IMG/VR virus record: IMGVR_UViG_3300042397_000441
Location: 1-36,334 of that record
DNA: 36,334 bases
Direction: 5' to 3' (one strand)
Origin: a virus
Below, in pieces: positions 21,702 through 30,829 of this stretch. The position numbers and the translations under genes are program-made. Each line of letters starts with the position of its first letter. Position 1 is the first letter of the stretch. The notes beneath the pieces are model-generated. The model saw nothing but the letters and a program-made list of their open reading frames with translations. It ran no database searches and was not told the DNA's origin.

Positions 21702-23039
21702 TTATAGTTTATAATCTTCAAATGTGGTTGTTTCTCCAATAAATCTAACTGCTAAGTTTCCTGTCTTGCCATGACGATTCTTCTCTACCTTAACAATCAC
21801 TAGGTCATCTGGATTGTACTCTTTACCACCAATCTCTACAGGCTCTTTCATTTCGTAATAAGATGGTCGCATTAACATTATTACTATGTCGCTATCTTGT
21901 TCGATACTACCTGATTCTCTAAGATCAGACAACATTGGTAGCTTATCAGCCCTTTCTTCTACCTTACGGCTTAACTGCGATAAAGCAATAATAGGTACTT
22001 CCAACTCTTTGGCTAAGGCTTTAAGGCTTCTGCTTATAAAACTTACTTCCTGCTCTCGGTTTTGGTTTTGTTTGCCTTGTCCACTCATAAGTTGAAGATA
22101 GTCTAGGAATATTACCTTAATACCATACTTCTGCTTAAGAATAGTAGCCTTAGCTCTGAGTTGTGAGATACTGATACCACCAGTATCCTCTATGTAGATG
22201 GGTGCTGTGATTATTTTGTCATCTGTCTTTAAAAGTAGCTTTCTTTCATAGTCATTCAAATTATTCGTTCTAAGGCGTTTTAAGGGCACTTGACTTGTTA
22301 TTGACTCTAACCTTTCAACAAGCTGTTCTGAGCTCATTTCGAGGCTAAAAATAGCCGTAGGAACGCTATTTAAGATAGCTAAGTGATAAACACTTGAAAG
22401 CATCATTGCTGTCTTACCTGCTCCTGGTCTAGCAGCTATAATACATAGGTCAGGTTTACACCATCCTGCTATAGTTTGATTTAGCTCTTGGAATCCTGTA
22501 TTAAATCCTAAAAGTTCGCCATTACTTGCTAAGTCCCTAGCAAAGTTGATAGCCATAACTACGTCAGTTATGCTTTTTTCATAGATATTGCCATATTCTT
22601 GGATAGATAATAGTTGGCTATTAAGGTCAGATAATAGGTCTAATGACTGACTATCGTTATCTAAGCATTGATTCTCAGCTATTCTAAGCACTTTATATGC
22701 TTCACGCTTCTTATACATCTCAATAACAATCTCAATATGGGTGTTTATGTGGGCTGTTGTAGTTACATTATCAGTTAACTTAGATAGGTAAAAAGCTCCA
22801 CCAACATCTTGGATGTCTTTGTCTTGGGAAAGTTTTTGAGCTACGGTAGTAAGGTCTATAGATATGTTACTATCATACATCTCCTTGATAGCGTTAAAGA
22901 TTTTTTGGTGCTTTAAATCGTAGAATATGTCAGTTTTTAGATGACCTATAACCAATGGGATAGTCCTTTTGTCTAAAAGCAATGCACCAAGTATGTTAGA
23001 TTCAATATCTAAAGCTTTTGGTAGGTTTATAGCTATCAT
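21702..23039 (-). CDS. dnaB: DnaB-like replicative helicase
   Basis: 445 residues, close to bacterial DnaB length. An N-terminal DnaB_N domain is visible (IESNILGALLLDKRTIPLVIG, then LTTVAQKLSQD, about 10-105), then a linker and the RecA-like C-terminal domain from about 180: GFNTGFQELNQTIAGW, Walker A ARPGAGKTA (near 205), a hydrophobic Walker B strand VIFLDYLQLMSG, and SRSLKALAKELEVPIIALSQLSRKVEERADKLPMLSDLRESGSIEQDSDIV. It unwinds DNA at the fork. It overlaps the upstream small gene by 4 bp and is in the same operon as the initiator candidate. Confidence 0.95.
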   Translation of the reverse strand: MIAINLPKALDIESNILGALLLDKRTIPLVIGHLKTDIFYDLKHQKIFNAIKEMYDSNISIDLTTVAQKLSQDKDIQDVGGAFYLSKLTDNVTTTAHINTHIEIVIEMYKKREAYKVLRIAENQCLDNDSQSLDLLSDLNSQLLSIQEYGNIYEKSITDVVMAINFARDLASNGELLGFNTGFQELNQTIAGWCKPDLCIIAARPGAGKTAMMLSSVYHLAILNSVPTAIFSLEMSSEQLVERLESITSQVPLKRLRTNNLNDYERKLLLKTDDKIITAPIYIEDTGGISISQLRAKATILKQKYGIKVIFLDYLQLMSGQGKQNQNREQEVSFISRSLKALAKELEVPIIALSQLSRKVEERADKLPMLSDLRESGSIEQDSDIVIMLMRPSYYEMKEPVEIGGKEYNPDDLVIVKVEKNRHGKTGNLAVRFIGETTTFEDYKL

Positions 23040-23233
23040 AATGCATCTATTTGAACTCTAACTTGCTTCCAAAATATTCTAGATTCAAGTGATTCAGTTA
23101 CTAATATTATTTCATCAACAGCTATTAAAGCACATTCTACGCATTTTGACCATTCTTCATTCATGGCAAATTTATCATATAGATACTTTTCATATTTTTC
23201 TACTATTTCAATAGCTTTTTGTTTTGGTGTCAT
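23036..23233 (-). CDS. Unknown small protein between initiator and helicase
   Basis: 65 residues: MTPKQKAIEIVEKYEKYL, then CVECALIAVDEIILVTESL and a C-terminal helix. The MTPKxKAxE and C-x-x-CALIAVDEII pattern is common in phages of Bacteroidota as a small helical protein. Function unknown. It overlaps the initiator stop by one base and the helicase start by four bases, so the three are coupled. Confidence 0.6.
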   Translation of the reverse strand: MTPKQKAIEIVEKYEKYLYDKFAMNEEWSKCVECALIAVDEIILVTESLESRIFWKQVRVQIDAL

Positions 23234-23865
23234 TATTTAAGTTTTATTTGTGTAGTTATTTTGTTTGTAGGTACGTTAGTAGTATTAAATTTAGAACTAT
23301 TCCTTTTCCAAGTTCTTACAGTAGCCTTCCAATCTTTCATTATTCCTGAGTTAAGTTTCCATCCTCTAGCTTCATAGTGATCACAGAAATATTCACCATC
23401 TAAAACAAAGTCTATTTCTTTAGCATAACTACTAATCTCTAAAGGACTTGGCTTAATAAATGTCTTATTATTGTTAATTGTATTGTTGGGTAAAGATTCT
23501 TTACCGTCTGAGGTAAACTTTTTTGACCCCTTAGGTAAACTTTCTTTACCAACGGTAAAGTGGTCATCAGCAATGCCAAAACTCCTATAATCATCTATAG
23601 CATCCTTAAAAGTACCTGCACATCTAAGATGGTTAGTCTTTTCATGCTTAGTTACTAATCCTTTTAAAATAAGACCCTTAATAATGTTTAAAATAGATTG
23701 TTTTGACAAGTCTAAATCATCTGCCATAGTTTCTCTACTCATGTAACACCAATGAGAATCGTTGTTTTGCATACGCAGTATAGTGTCTAATACACAATAC
23801 TCGTTACAAGATAAATGAAAAGCCTTCCTTACTGGATGGATAATCGTTGTATAAAATTGAGCCAT
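23233..23865 (-). CDS. Replication initiator candidate, winged helix plus DnaD-like tail
   Basis: 210 residues. The N-terminal part (LSCNEYCVLDTILRMQN, then CYMSRETMADDLDLSKQSILNIIKGLILKGLV) is a winged-helix domain of the phage replication-protein O / DnaD type. A linker with the repeated GKESLP motif follows. The C-terminus ARGWKLNSGIMKDWKATVRTWKRN resembles the tail of DnaD-like loaders. It is directly upstream of the DnaB gene. By family knowledge it binds the origin and loads helicase. A structured leader (23866-23965) with a terminator U-tract precedes its ATG, so expression is likely attenuated. Confidence 0.75.
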   Translation of the reverse strand: MAQFYTTIIHPVRKAFHLSCNEYCVLDTILRMQNNDSHWCYMSRETMADDLDLSKQSILNIIKGLILKGLVTKHEKTNHLRCAGTFKDAIDDYRSFGIADDHFTVGKESLPKGSKKFTSDGKESLPNNTINNNKTFIKPSPLEISSYAKEIDFVLDGEYFCDHYEARGWKLNSGIMKDWKATVRTWKRNSSKFNTTNVPTNKITTQIKLK

Positions 23866-26926: not shown

Positions 26927-27307
26927 TTAATAGTTATCTGAATATAATTTAGGAATCTTTATTTTGCTTTTTACTTGTTCGTATTTTTCCATATAATATG
27001 GTACTATTTCAACATCATTTACAAAAGTATTAATGCCATATAGTACTGTAGTCCTATCTCTTTTGAACAATGGTGCTATTTGACTTGCTCTAAGTTTATA
27101 TTCCATATGTAAAATAAAATAGCACATATTTCTTGCAAGTACAAAATCTCTTTCTCTGCACTTTTTTATTAAAGATTTATTAGATATATCAAATACTTCT
27201 TTAACAGCATTTATAAGTTGATCATGATTTATTTTAGATGTATCTACCAATTTAGGCTTTTGTGCAAGTAATTGCTCTCTTGGTGTTCTAAATTTCGCTG
27301 TAGTCAT
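26927..27307 (-). CDS. DnaA domain-IV-like DNA-binding protein
   Basis: 126 residues. The segment KCRERDFVLARNMCYFILHMEYKLRASQIAPLFKRDRTTVLYGINTFVNDV matches the C-terminal DNA-binding domain of DnaA: the R-x-x-x-x-R-x-x-x-x-x-L helix, the L-R-x-S-Q-I helix, and DRTTVLYG in place of the DnaA signature DHTTVxxA. There is no AAA+ domain, so it cannot act as an ATP-driven initiator. It may bind DnaA-box-like sites as a regulator or competitor, or load host factors. It is far from the helicase gene but in the same leftward block. Confidence 0.75.
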   Translation of the reverse strand: MTTAKFRTPREQLLAQKPKLVDTSKINHDQLINAVKEVFDISNKSLIKKCRERDFVLARNMCYFILHMEYKLRASQIAPLFKRDRTTVLYGINTFVNDVEIVPYYMEKYEQVKSKIKIPKLYSDNY

Positions 27308-27733: not shown

Positions 27734-27943
27734 TTATTCCTCTTCTGAGGGTTTTGGATAGATTTTTGTTTCTAGGACTTCTGATGTTCTGAGTGGTAGA
27801 CCTTGACTAAGCTTCTCAAAGATGGCATAAGCTACTTCTTTTTTAGTGCTGATAGTTCCACTGATAAATACACCATCTTGCTTAGTAAAGTAGATTGTGT
27901 CGTTAAGTAATTGATCTGTTTCAGCTACGAATTCGAATTTCAT
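27734..27943 (-). CDS. Unknown small protein
   Basis: 69 residues: MKFEFVAETDQLLNDTIYFTKQDGVFISGTISTKKEVAYAIFEKLSQG, then LPLRTSEVLETKIYPKPSEEE. A strand-turn-strand-helix domain with an acidic tail. The leader ACACATG is like other starts here. No family recognised. Confidence 0.5.
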   Translation of the reverse strand: MKFEFVAETDQLLNDTIYFTKQDGVFISGTISTKKEVAYAIFEKLSQGLPLRTSEVLETKIYPKPSEEE

Positions 27944-27955
27944 GTGTTGTATGTT

Positions 27956-28153
27956 TTATTTGTTAAGTTTTTGGTGTCTAGTAAAATAGGTTTTTGGATC
28001 ACCTATCTTGACCTGGCTCATATTCTTCTCATATTCCAAAGGATGAATACAGGTTTTTGTCTGATGATTGTAATAGGCTTGTTCGCCTTTGTCGATGATT
28101 GTGCCAGTAATACCGCACTTCATCTGGTAGCTGAGTGTGATTAATTCGTGCAT
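27956..28153 (-). CDS. First small protein of the leftward replication operon
   Basis: 65 residues: MHELITLSYQMKCGITGTIIDKGEQAYYNHQTKTCIHPLEYEKN, then VKIGDPKTYFTRHQKLNK. Two cysteines about 20 residues apart (C13 and C35) with a His next to the second could bind metal, but no clear pattern. It is the first frame after the 28154-28532 non-coding region, with -7-like elements at 28176 (TACATTCG) and 28355 (TAAATTTG) upstream. Confidence 0.55.
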   Translation of the reverse strand: MHELITLSYQMKCGITGTIIDKGEQAYYNHQTKTCIHPLEYEKNMSQVKIGDPKTYFTRHQKLNK

Positions 28154-28175
28154 GGGTTTTTTGTTTTGGTTGTGT

Positions 28176-28183
28176 CGAATGTA
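28176..28183 (-). promoter_or_regulatory. -7-like element TACATTCG before the leftward operon
   Basis: On the minus strand TACATTCG lies 22 nt before the ATG at 28153. It is a TAnnTTCG variant of the host consensus; similar variants lie at 30891, 31158 and 21117. Confidence 0.4.
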
Positions 28184-28192
28184 AAATTAGGA

Positions 28193-28333
28193 AGTTTTTG
28201 TAAATTTTAATAGATTTTTAGTTAAAACTTTGTTAAAGGTTTGCAAAAGTTTTTGTCCATACAAAAGATTTTTGCCCCAGATTTTTGTGGGTTTTTTGGG
28301 GAGTTTTTGCATAGGGTTTTTGGCAGGTTTTTG
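28193..28333 (+). repeat. Phased T-tract array
   Basis: T-tracts ending at 28200, 28232, 28243, 28255, 28274, 28287, 28298, 28309, 28322 and 28333, plus one ending with A near 28220. Most intervals are 11-13 bp, close to one helical turn, and most units read RRTTTTTG. Confidence 0.6.
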
Positions 28334-28354
28334 GGTGCAACTGAAAAGTAGTTA

Positions 28355-28362
28355 CAAATTTA
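28355..28362 (-). promoter_or_regulatory. -7 promoter element TAAATTTG at the control region
   Basis: It matches TAnnTTTG on the minus strand, directly next to the 20-bp palindrome. Transcripts from it would run through the T-tract array, giving a leader of about 200 nt with repeated CAAAAA motifs. Confidence 0.5.
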
Positions 28363-28364
28363 AT

Positions 28365-28384
28365 TTAGTTGATTAGTCAACTAA
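28365..28384. promoter_or_regulatory. 20-bp operator-like palindrome
   Basis: TTAGTTGA (28365-28372), spacer TTAG, then TCAACTAA (28377-28384); the 8-bp arms are perfect. It lies just upstream of the minus-strand promoter element and would cover its -35/-33 region, so a repressor or activator site is likely. Confidence 0.6.
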
Positions 28385-28532: not shown

Positions 28533-28700
28533 TTATTTTGCCAAATATTCGTACCAATTCTTTTTTATTTGTCTTACATAGGTATTAAAAGACTGTTTTG
28601 CTCCTTTCATACTCATAAAATAATACGTTTGTTTAACTAATTGTTGGTTAATTATTGCCGAAATAACAATAACGCCATTCTCTTTGCGTTCAATAATCAT
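28533..28700 (-). CDS. 55-residue basic protein of the early region
   Basis: Starts ATG ATT ATT at 28700 and stops at 28533-28535. It encodes MIIERKENGVIVISAIINQQ, then LVKQTYYFMSMKGAKQSFNTYVRQIKKNWYEYLAK. The layout, two strands with an NG turn, then YYF and a K-A-x-x-x-F-x-x-x-VR helix, is that of a small protein widely seen in Bacteroidota phages, which supports it as real. A terminator lies upstream of it at 28723-28745, so it needs its own promoter or readthrough. Function unknown. Confidence 0.65.
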   Translation of the reverse strand: MIIERKENGVIVISAIINQQLVKQTYYFMSMKGAKQSFNTYVRQIKKNWYEYLAK

Positions 28701-28722
28701 TTTATTAATTTTTGGTTAAGAT

Positions 28723-28745
28723 AAAAGGGCAAAAATGCCCCTTTA
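28723..28745 (-). terminator. Terminator hairpin between early gene groups
   Basis: On the minus strand GGGC, loop ATTTTT, GCCC, then TTTTAT, with flanking AAAG pairs extending the stem. It separates the 28777-30829 gene group from the 55-residue gene. The hairpin is symmetric enough to act on the plus strand too. Confidence 0.6.
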
Positions 28746-28776
28746 TTTCGCTTAATTAAAGCTCTTCAGTTAACCT

Positions 28777-29058
28777 TTATTCAAATAAGCTCCTTTCATT
28801 ATAAAAGGGCTTTATATCGTCTAAAAATGCTTCATATTTGATTTTTTCGTCTAATGTTTTGCATTTTAATACGTTAAAATCTAAGTATTTAAGTTGACTT
28901 TGCATCTCTTCAATTAAAAGGCTTCTTTGCTTATTGGCTGTTAATTCAAAAAGCATCTGCAAAAGTTCGTCTGAATCATAGTCTTTTAATAAAGATTCAA
29001 TCCATTTTTCTACTATTGACGGCGTTATATTTTTATTTTTGTATTTGTAGTAATTCAT
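28777..29058 (-). CDS. Unknown helical protein
   Basis: 93 residues: MNYYKYKNKNITPSIVEKWIES, LLKDYDSDELLQMLFELTANKQRSLLIEEMQSQLKYLDF, then KCKTLDEKIKYEAFLDDIKPFYNERSLFE. All helix, charged, no membrane segment or motif. It is the last gene of the upstream early group and precedes a terminator. Not recognised. Confidence 0.55.
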   Translation of the reverse strand: MNYYKYKNKNITPSIVEKWIESLLKDYDSDELLQMLFELTANKQRSLLIEEMQSQLKYLDFNVLKCKTLDEKIKYEAFLDDIKPFYNERSLFE

Positions 29059-29070
29059 AGGTAATAAAGT

Positions 29071-29592
29071 TTAAAAGTTAAATAAAACGCCATTTTCAGT
29101 GAATTGGTATTCGTTATCGTCAAAATAGTCGGCTAAAAATTCATCTGAGAATAAATATTCGTATTCAAATTGTAATAATTTCCAATATTCGTGCAATACG
29201 TCTTTTTGGAATTGGTATTCCAATTCGTTTAATTCGGCTTCTAATTCGTCTTCTTTTATTGGAGCTCCGTCAACAAATTCATAAGAGTCGCAAATTCTTA
29301 GCCTATCTTTTAAAAATATAGAAGCTAAATTATTCATATTTGTACCCTCTGAAAATTCATCTTCTAATTTCTCGGCAACTTCTATTTCTGACCATATAAA
29401 TTCACCATCTATTTTTTGCCCTCTGTCAAGGTCAAATCCTGTCAATCTTATGCCGTTTTCCTTTGCATCGTAAAAGGTATCTTCGTACCAATAATCAGAA
29501 GTCCCAAAATCTCGGTATTTGTTTAATGCAAATTCCTTTGCTTTTTCGTTTAATTCACTAAAAGAAAATGTGTTTATTGTTTGTGTTTTCAT
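29071..29592 (-). CDS. Conserved phage/plasmid protein of unknown function
   Basis: 173 residues from ATG 29592; a longer start at 29628 overlaps the upstream gene and adds an unlike stretch. MKTQTINTFSFSELNEKAKEFALNKYRDF, then YWYEDTFYDAKENGIRLTGFDLDRG and a very acidic C-terminus. The ELxExAKxxAxxxYRD opening, the W-x-E-x-x-x-x-DA-x-x-x-GI-x-x-x-GFDLDRG block and the acidity match a family common in phages and conjugative elements, often called hypothetical. The acidity (DNA mimic-like) is worth noting. Confidence 0.6.
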   Translation of the reverse strand: MKTQTINTFSFSELNEKAKEFALNKYRDFGTSDYWYEDTFYDAKENGIRLTGFDLDRGQKIDGEFIWSEIEVAEKLEDEFSEGTNMNNLASIFLKDRLRICDSYEFVDGAPIKEDELEAELNELEYQFQKDVLHEYWKLLQFEYEYLFSDEFLADYFDDNEYQFTENGVLFNF

Positions 29593-29615
29593 TTTATAAG
29601 TATTTAAAAGGTTAA

Positions 29616-29930
29616 TTAATCTTCGCATTCTAATGAATAGGTATCAAAGTTTTCCGCTTCTTCGTATGTTTCAAAAAAGTGCTCTTCGCCATTCTTCATA
29701 TTAGTTACCAAATATTCAACTTCTCTTCCGAGCATTGAACAAATAGAAACGCCATTTTCGAGGGCTATATAAACATATCCCGAATTAGGATTAAAGCCGA
29801 TACCATCTTCTAATATTTCTTCACCTATTGAAGCATAGGCTTCGAATACTTTTGACATTCCTAATGCTTCTAAATAGCAAAGTGAATGCGAATCAAATCC
29901 ATTAATTGTAATTTGTTGAATGTTTCTCAT
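29616..29930 (-). CDS. Unknown acidic protein
   Basis: 104 residues: MRNIQQITINGFDSHSLCYLEALGMSKVFEAYASIGEEILEDGIGFNPNSGYVYIALENGVSICSMLGREVEYLVTNMKNGEEHFFETYEEAENFD. An alpha/beta protein with a very acidic end (YEEAENFDTYSLECED). The SGYVYIALENGVSICSMLGREVEYLVT strand block is seen in small phage proteins next to the family at 29071. Function unknown. Confidence 0.55.
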   Translation of the reverse strand: MRNIQQITINGFDSHSLCYLEALGMSKVFEAYASIGEEILEDGIGFNPNSGYVYIALENGVSICSMLGREVEYLVTNMKNGEEHFFETYEEAENFDTYSLECED

Positions 29931-29940
29931 TTGTAATTTA

Positions 29941-30195
29941 TTAGTATGTTTTTAAAATTGTGTTACCATCTTGATTCAAAATATCTATCGTTTCAGTTTC
30001 GTGAACTGAATCATAGACATATTCAAAGTCTTCTAAATTCTCGAATAATTCACCATTATGATACATATCAATGGCTAATTTGTCGGCTTCTTCTTGTGAA
30101 CTAGCTTCGATATATTTAAAACTAGTTGTCCAAATTGTACATTGTTGGTCAACCTGAATCTTAAATTCCTTTGTTTGTGTTTGTGTAGTGTTCAT
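29941..30195 (-). CDS. Unknown acidic protein
   Basis: 84 residues: MNTTQTQTKEFKIQVDQQCTIWTTSFKYIEASSQEEADKLAIDMYHNGELFENLEDFEYVYDSVHETETIDI. The FKIQVDQQCTIW strand, EASSQEEADKLA helix and the D/E-rich rest look like a small alpha/beta domain of the kind found in conjugative or phage accessory genes. Its start codon region is duplicated exactly at 30344-30364, at the start of the next small gene. Confidence 0.55.
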   Translation of the reverse strand: MNTTQTQTKEFKIQVDQQCTIWTTSFKYIEASSQEEADKLAIDMYHNGELFENLEDFEYVYDSVHETETIDILNQDGNTILKTY

Positions 30196-30364
30196 AGTGT
30201 TTAATTTTTATAAATTGAAATAGTTTATTAATTCATTTTCCTCTTTATCAGTTAAAAGTAATTCACCTTGAAAATACAAGTTTAATACTTCGCTATCTTT
30301 TAACAAATAGCCATAAATTTTAATAAGGTCTTTTTTAATGTTTTTCATAGTGTTTAATTTTTAT
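30191..30364 (-). repeat. Direct repeat of a translation-start region (21 bp)
   Basis: The 21-bp sequences at 30191-30211 and 30344-30364 are identical. On the minus strand each contains ATTAAACACTATGAA, so the repeat covers the start codon and upstream leader of two consecutive genes. Confidence 0.7.
30208..30348 (-). CDS. 46-residue small protein
   Basis: Starts at 30348 and stops TAA at 30210-30208. It encodes MKNIKKDLIKIYGYLLKD, SEVLNLYFQGELLLTDKEENELINYFNL. Two helices separated by a short turn. The identical start region shared with the 29941-30195 gene supports translation. No family recognised. Confidence 0.55.
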   Translation of the reverse strand: MKNIKKDLIKIYGYLLKDSEVLNLYFQGELLLTDKEENELINYFNL

Positions 30365-30462
30365 TTGTTTGTAATTTCTTGCCAAATTGTTTTTGCTAAT
30401 GTGTAGATAAGAATTGACCCAATAAATAAAAGAATCAATTCAATTAAACTAATCGTTTGCAT
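30361..30462 (-). CDS. 33-residue single-helix membrane protein
   Basis: Starts at 30462 and stops TAA at 30363-30361. MQTISLIELILLFIGSILI, then YTLAKTIWQEITNK. One strong membrane helix and a basic tail. It overlaps the next small gene by 14 bp in another frame. Not recognised. Confidence 0.5.
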   Translation of the reverse strand: MQTISLIELILLFIGSILIYTLAKTIWQEITNK

Positions 30463-30565
30463 TGTTATCGATTAAAAGGTGAATTAATAGTTTACCGACG
30501 TTTGCCATAAATAAGCTAAATAAAACTAATTCAGCTATTAAAAGGATTGTTGAAAGTGTTTCCAT
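30449..30565 (-). CDS. 38-residue single-helix membrane protein
   Basis: Starts at 30565 and stops TAG at 30451-30449, overlapping the next gene by 14 bp. METLSTILLIAELVLFSLFM, then ANVGKLLIHLLIDNNAND. A membrane helix and a second amphipathic segment. The tandem overlap with the 33-residue membrane gene suggests both are translated. Not recognised. Confidence 0.5.
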   Translation of the reverse strand: METLSTILLIAELVLFSLFMANVGKLLIHLLIDNNAND

Positions 30566-30583
30566 TGTGTTTAGGTTTAAGGG

Positions 30584-30829
30584 TTAAATATCTTGTTGAA
30601 TAGTGTTAGAATAATAAACATCAAGAAAAAGGCTTTTAATACTTGTTTCCTGATAAGCATTAACGCCTGTTTGCTTTTCAATATTAATAGCCAAATCTAA
30701 AAGGTCTTTTAATATCATTGCTTTTGCTTTTGACTCACCTGTATTGGCTTTCCAATCTATAATATTTGACGCAATAGATTGTAGTAATTGACTAACTTGA
30801 TACTCGTTTTTAAGTGTGATTGTTTGCAT
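30584..30829 (-). CDS. First gene of the leftward early operon, unknown helical protein
   Basis: 81 residues: MQTITLKNEYQVSQLLQSIASNIIDWKANTGESKAKAMILKDLLDLAINIEKQTGVNAYQETSIKSL. Mostly helix, no motif. As the first gene downstream of the divergent control region, it is expected to be expressed early in infection. A -7-like element TATATTCG lies at 30891-30898. Confidence 0.55.
   Translation of the reverse strand: MQTITLKNEYQVSQLLQSIASNIIDWKANTGESKAKAMILKDLLDLAINIEKQTGVNAYQETSIKSLFLDVYYSNTIQQDI

Follow-up and report, generated by a model that had tools for sequence, protein, structure and literature searches.

The iterons of phage and plasmid origins are direct repeats that lie near replication genes and AT-rich DNA, and antitermination elements of leader RNA are represented by lambda nut and HK022 put. 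At oriC of B. subtilis, DnaD reads one strand at the DnaA-trio/DnaD Recognition Element (PMC10201434). Rut sites follow a published rule (RUT) of 78 nt with more C than G and a C every 11-13 nt (PMC6407284).

In the window, i.e. the whole 36,334-nt stretch of phage DNA analysed here, we found an array of a short word, CA5-6(CC/CT/TC), that has likenesses to all of these systems. As with iterons, its units repeat directly and have replication genes and AT-rich DNA close by, but the word has eight letters, the spacing varies from 9 to 17, the array is dispensable in close relatives, and a one-sided tail extends into genes. In some arrangements it occupies the leader of an early operon, as nut and put do; unlike them, it has many copies and no conserved RNA structure that we could find, and it also occurs antisense to the following genes. 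With the B. subtilis elements (PMC10201434) it shares a short repeated one-strand word near DnaA/DnaD-type functions; those elements, however, are TnnT pairs and GAT trios found only in the unwinding region, whereas the arrays show a kilobase gradient through genes, and the window has no exact DnaA box. Like rut sites (PMC6407284), the array has C in excess of G with cytosines every 11-13 nt over a region of ~80 nt, on the sense strand and distally in an operon. What rut sites require is C residues at intervals, whereas the array is an exact word repeated 6-10 times, with a 2-kb tail of the same word in coding sequence, sense or antisense. Literature searches returned no description of such arrays.

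The array and its surroundings in the window

The window represents a phage genome in full; its terminal direct repeat is 127 bp long, and the circle measures 36,207 bp. The cultured-phage collection contained no close relatives of this phage, by DNA or by its 65-aa protein (see below). Its tape-measure-like protein matches Riemerella, Flavobacterium, Cellulophaga and Bacteroides phages. The tape-measure region of OQ791282.1 ('Shigella phage Henu10') is as identical to those of Riemerella phages as the latter are among themselves, and the host label of this record may be wrong.

Between 20 and 28 kb, leftward genes encode a DnaB-like replicative helicase (21702..23039, minus strand; PF03796, 3.8e-89), a DnaD/O-like replication initiator (23233..23865, minus strand), a methyltransferase and a protein with only domain IV of DnaA (26927..27307, minus strand; Pfam PF08299, 8.6e-13). 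A similar stand-alone DnaA-domain-IV protein is present in Pelagibacter phages, e.g. the cultured HTVC010P. The first gene downstream of the array encodes a small cysteine-containing protein of 65 aa (27956..28153, minus strand); it is a common partner of arrays but was rejected as a universal one, being missing from many array phages. Upstream, leftward genes from the ORF list (28533..30829, minus strand) read toward the array on the array strand. On the plus strand at 28727-28740 there is a terminator-like hairpin, GGGC-AAAAAT-GCCC with a T-rich tail, whose loop resembles the CAAAAA word.

The initial annotation reported about ten T-tracts ending in G at a spacing near the helical repeat. 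The tracts are real, but they number eight (T5-6G at 28195, 28250, 28269, 28282, 28292, 28304, 28317 and 28328; start-to-start spacings 55, 19, 13, 10, 12, 13 and 11), and the 8 RRT5-6G words within 28191-28345 exceed what 2000 dinucleotide shuffles gave, 0.91 on average and never more than 5. The seven core tracts are imperfectly phased with the helix, their phase coherence reaching just 0.38 at 10.5 bp and 0.72 at 11 bp. Read leftward, each tract becomes CAAAAA(A) with CC, CT or TC after it; CAAAAA(A)YY words occur 25 times on the minus strand of the whole window genome and 7 times on the plus strand. Seven of them constitute the core array (28248..28333, minus strand), with first bases at 28333, 28322, 28309, 28298, 28287, 28274 and 28255 and first-base spacings of 11, 13, 11, 11, 13 and 19, a series found in many relatives. 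Two outlying words on the same strand (28155..28200) are CAAAAACT at 28193-28200 and CAAAAAACC at 28155-28163, the latter directly preceding the start codon of the 65-aa gene, and others lie inside the first downstream genes (27768..28066, minus strand; first bases 28059, 27996, 27973, then 27768).

Adjoining the array start is an imperfect dyad, GCAACT..AGTTAC (28337..28355), which is perfect (GCAACT-N7-AGTTGC) in many of the group-1 relatives described below. The 20-bp palindrome of the initial annotation, TTAGTTGA-TTAG-TCAACTAA (28365..28384), indeed has perfect 8-bp arms around a 4-bp centre, and is present in a minority of relatives only. In both phage groups, AT-rich palindromes of the type AATGTTnnAACATT lie a short way upstream of the array (L079, L110, L289, L290 and others), which suggests that the upstream palindrome element and the array can move together. 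As for the leftward promoter proposed here, there is a TAAATTTG box at 28355-28362, but promoter-like scores upstream of arrays (6.86) were not above those of shuffles (6.68), and a conserved promoter just upstream of the array was rejected. Another promoter-like box predicted from the sequence, TAATTTTAC (28181..28189, minus strand), precedes the 65-aa gene; it also precedes inserted genes in relatives, and lies at +60 to +260 from the array in 40 of the 77 group-1 representatives. The interval between the array and the 65-aa gene resembles an insertion hot spot, where variable gene cassettes (e.g. in L037, L046, L060, L075 and L086) include two DNA-methyltransferase-like families.

Recurrence of the array in two phage groups

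Array loci were collected from IMG/VR with two protein queries and one DNA pattern. The resulting >200 virus loci, which share descent and whose counts are not independent events, fell into two phage groups with differing replication machinery and four gene arrangements. In this large family of uncultured viruses of bacteria, the array stands where the replication region begins. Replication is of the DnaB type in group 1, to which the window belongs; group 2 encodes a Prim-Pol/helicase protein on a genome that is almost wholly one-directional. Genes of the relatives were called as mechanical open reading frames. In 84,980 bacterial and archaeal genomes, the same DNA pattern gave 27 matches, mostly simple tandem repeats; therefore, the arrays look phage-specific, and a host chromosomal source was rejected.

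The link to replication genes proposed in the initial annotation was supported. A DnaA-domain-IV gene was present in 123 of the 123 array loci with sufficient flank (at least 0.6 kb upstream and 3 kb downstream), part of which had been retrieved using this gene as the query, and in 46 of the 46 loci retrieved by the DNA pattern alone. Group-2 loci retrieved by the DnaA-domain-IV protein had the array in 19 of 24 cases, with further gene arrangements. Spacings between neighbouring words were predominantly odd (229/265 in group 1, 131/154 in group 2; peaks at 9, 11, 13 and 17). This bias was ~85% in both groups and was also seen among distinct unit sequences; shared descent may have inflated the excess.

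The 65-aa protein and a 74-aa protein encoded in the group-2 upstream operon (L288, L293, L295-L298, L303 and L305) look like one small cysteine protein family (27% identity, E 1.7e-5). In the group-2 loci L186, L301 and L304, an AT-rich stretch flanked by repeats like AATCGCGTACC is found at +100 to +350 from the array; lying beside the Prim-Pol/helicase gene, it resembles an independent origin.

A one-sided gradient of the word through coding DNA

Employing dereplicated loci, we determined the density of CA5-6(CC/CT/TC) on the array strand. In group 1, it was 0.04-0.23/kb upstream and 57/kb in the array, then 11.6, 8.0, 4.5, 3.1, 1.9 and 0.3/kb going downstream to 4 kb. The corresponding values in group 2 were 0-0.16/kb, 51/kb, and 3.3, 3.5, 3.7, 1.15, 0.44 and 0.05/kb. 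Density returned to background ~2-2.5 kb downstream of the array, and on the opposite strand it was 0-0.2/kb throughout. Downstream genes were array-sense in 56/56 group-1 loci and antisense in 18/18 group-2 loci. Coding direction does not account for the word signal, since the gradient is the same with sense and antisense downstream genes, and the antisense genes of group 2 led us to reject a leader function purely in the mRNA sense.

The word is also enriched relative to synonymous-codon shuffles. In sense genes within 1.6 kb, CA5CC, CA5CT and CA5TC were 2.9-3.0-fold over the shuffles (z ~10), whereas CA4YY, CA5TT, CA5YR and GA5YY showed no excess in these genes; the coding-sequence words occurred in all three reading frames. 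Antisense genes of group 2 contained 31 words at 120-2200 nt, compared to 15.5 in shuffles (sd 3.5, 0/400 shuffles), and no excess at 2.2-6 kb (3 vs 7.2). A second set of antisense genes showed a weaker excess (CA5YY, 28 vs 17.9, z 2.8). The antisense excess is firm in direction, less so in size.

A methyltransferase family (MNVLE) provided a natural experiment. Downstream of an array, 19/19 copies carried 1-5 words (mean 2.74, shuffle expectation 0.95), whereas 42 homologues without a nearby array had 3 words in total (0.07 per copy); the two sets differ by clade, and the comparison is supportive rather than independent proof. Three further copies classed as 'no array' either had a short array (3-4 words) or were truncated in the flank. 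In a within-family comparison over all shared genes, most of the 'other' copies were still <3 kb from an array.

These results established the CAAAAA word as a real directional signal, one that is most likely read on RNA and not as simple bent DNA.

Possible readers of the directional signal

In 100/100 loci, the region 0.6-1.9 kb upstream is coding on the array strand and toward the array, which is placed at the distal end of this incoming operon. In group 2, the array is at or near the junction with an opposing replication operon. Based on the constant strand, the one-sidedness and the operon reading in, we favour a signal on nascent RNA, and we assign a probability of about 0.38 to a directional cis signal causing rut-like termination or attenuation of the incoming operon. 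The operon running into the array would produce nascent RNA carrying the words; the C-over-G stretch, with words every 11-13 nt, may load an RNA-binding or ring-shaped factor, as at a rut site; the loaded factor would stop or attenuate transcripts that otherwise run on into the replication module, and the sparser words across the following 2 kb would serve as a backup. We infer RNA as the form read, a Rho-like factor as the reader and termination or attenuation as the outcome.

Reading on nascent RNA is supported by the same gradient with downstream genes sense (group 1) or antisense (group 2), by the arrays of L106, L075, L030 and L086, which lead straight into start codons and thus must belong to the 5' UTR, by coding-sequence words above synonymous shuffles in both orientations, and by the MNVLE methyltransferase comparison. 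The rut-like form of this reading is supported by the composition of the array, which conforms to the RUT rule (78 nt, C>G, C every 11-13 nt) and whose C/G ratio ranks in the top 1% in 78% of the loci in group 1 and 88% of those in group 2. The secondary idea of the initial annotation, that a factor binds the CAAAAA series in leftward RNA, fits better than its main proposals, since the word is strand-specific, one-sided and continues for ~2 kb. Two observations weaken the rut-like reading: array RNA is no less structured than other windows (MFE -13.1 vs a mean of -14.2; 43% of windows are less structured), and in one group-2 arrangement the array is ~500 nt past the last gene of the upstream operon. 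Plain Rho fits poorly, because the word is exact (A5-6, with A4, TT and YR variants not enriched), which calls for a sequence-specific reader, and because group-1 words lie in genes that need expression, where translation would mask Rho. Intrinsic-terminator-like sites between the upstream operon and the array were seen in a minority of loci only and decide nothing.

The main rival to nascent-RNA reading, to which we give somewhat lower odds, is a strand-specific origin element. In this view, a replication protein, which might be the DnaA-domain-IV protein or a factor of the host, would bind the words at origin opening and as the helicase leaves the array, either on ssDNA or on duplex sites with a fixed orientation. 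This is consistent with the DnaA-domain-IV gene in every testable locus (123/123; 46/46 by DNA pattern alone), a link kept across four gene arrangements, with the AT-rich DNA and iteron-like repeats that adjoin the group-2 array beside the Prim-Pol/helicase gene, and with the B. subtilis precedent of a DnaD that reads a single origin strand (PMC10201434). However, the close relatives L301, L304 and L299 retain the AT-rich and iteron-like DNA with only 3, 1 and 0 words, so the array is not an indispensable origin core; array DNA is C-rich rather than AT-rich, the helicases differ between the two groups, and an upstream operon that is always array-sense is not predicted. The candidate origin of the initial annotation is partly supported, by the link to replication genes and by the group-2 AT-rich/iteron neighbourhood, while the array itself is reduced or lost in L301, L304 and L299. 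DnaA boxes at the array were rejected: the window contains no exact TGTGNATAA, and one-mismatch boxes are fewer than by chance (a phage-specific box is conceivable). GC skew tracks gene orientation, and the array does not stand out in it.

Alternatively, the words could be early-RNA sites for a sequence-specific RNA-binding protein, with the transcript protected or antiterminated instead of ended. The exactness of the word would suit such a protein, as would the spread of words over the first 1.6 kb of group-1 sense genes and the position of the array in the 5' UTR of several phages (L106, L075, L030 and L086, where it runs directly into start codons). We consider antitermination unlikely, as the group-2 gradient is antisense to the following genes, no Rfam family matched the region at gathering score (one sub-threshold match was outside the array), and no protein except DnaA-IV is a universal candidate.

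Strongly bent DNA, as initially proposed, is predicted in the window: in a wedge model, whose values follow the Bolshoy 1991 table and passed a sanity check only, the 120-bp window starting at 28150 is the most bent of the genome. The predicted bend comes mainly from the AT-rich stretch between the array and the 65-aa gene (28165..28247), left of the core array. Near the array, 67% of group-1 loci had a predicted bend in the top 1%; in group 2 the share was 4%, equal to the control. With spacings of 9, 11, 13 and 17 that are not phased and a strand-specific word inside genes that bending cannot explain, helically phased bent DNA aiding promoter or origin function is very improbable, and it was rejected as a conserved function, the curvature being present in group 1 and absent in group 2. 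Least probable of all are Chi-like signals turning a helicase-nuclease that arrives from the downstream side: they would account for a word density that has orientation, is limited to one strand and one side, and ignores coding direction, but known Chi is clearly over-represented in the host genome, whereas CAAAAAYY was ~0.9-1.6x its mirror not clearly an excess, in five Bacteroidota genomes, which may not include the host, and a Chi-like host signal was set aside on these genomes.

Taken as an exact strand-specific word, nucleated in arrays beside DnaA-IV-type replication modules and trailing off to one side over ~2 kb of coding DNA in either orientation, with a reader factor that would move or polymerise away from the array, the element might, tentatively, represent a new class of phage cis-elements. 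If so, protein-coding genes of these phages would carry a directional code of sufficient strength to bias codon choice in both coding orientations, and the word would expose a reader at the junction of transcription and replication, which could be a Bacteroidota Rho with unusual specificity, an RNA-binding protein or a DnaA-IV-type initiator. Such phages could also be searched for by the word itself, a simple signature in their DNA.
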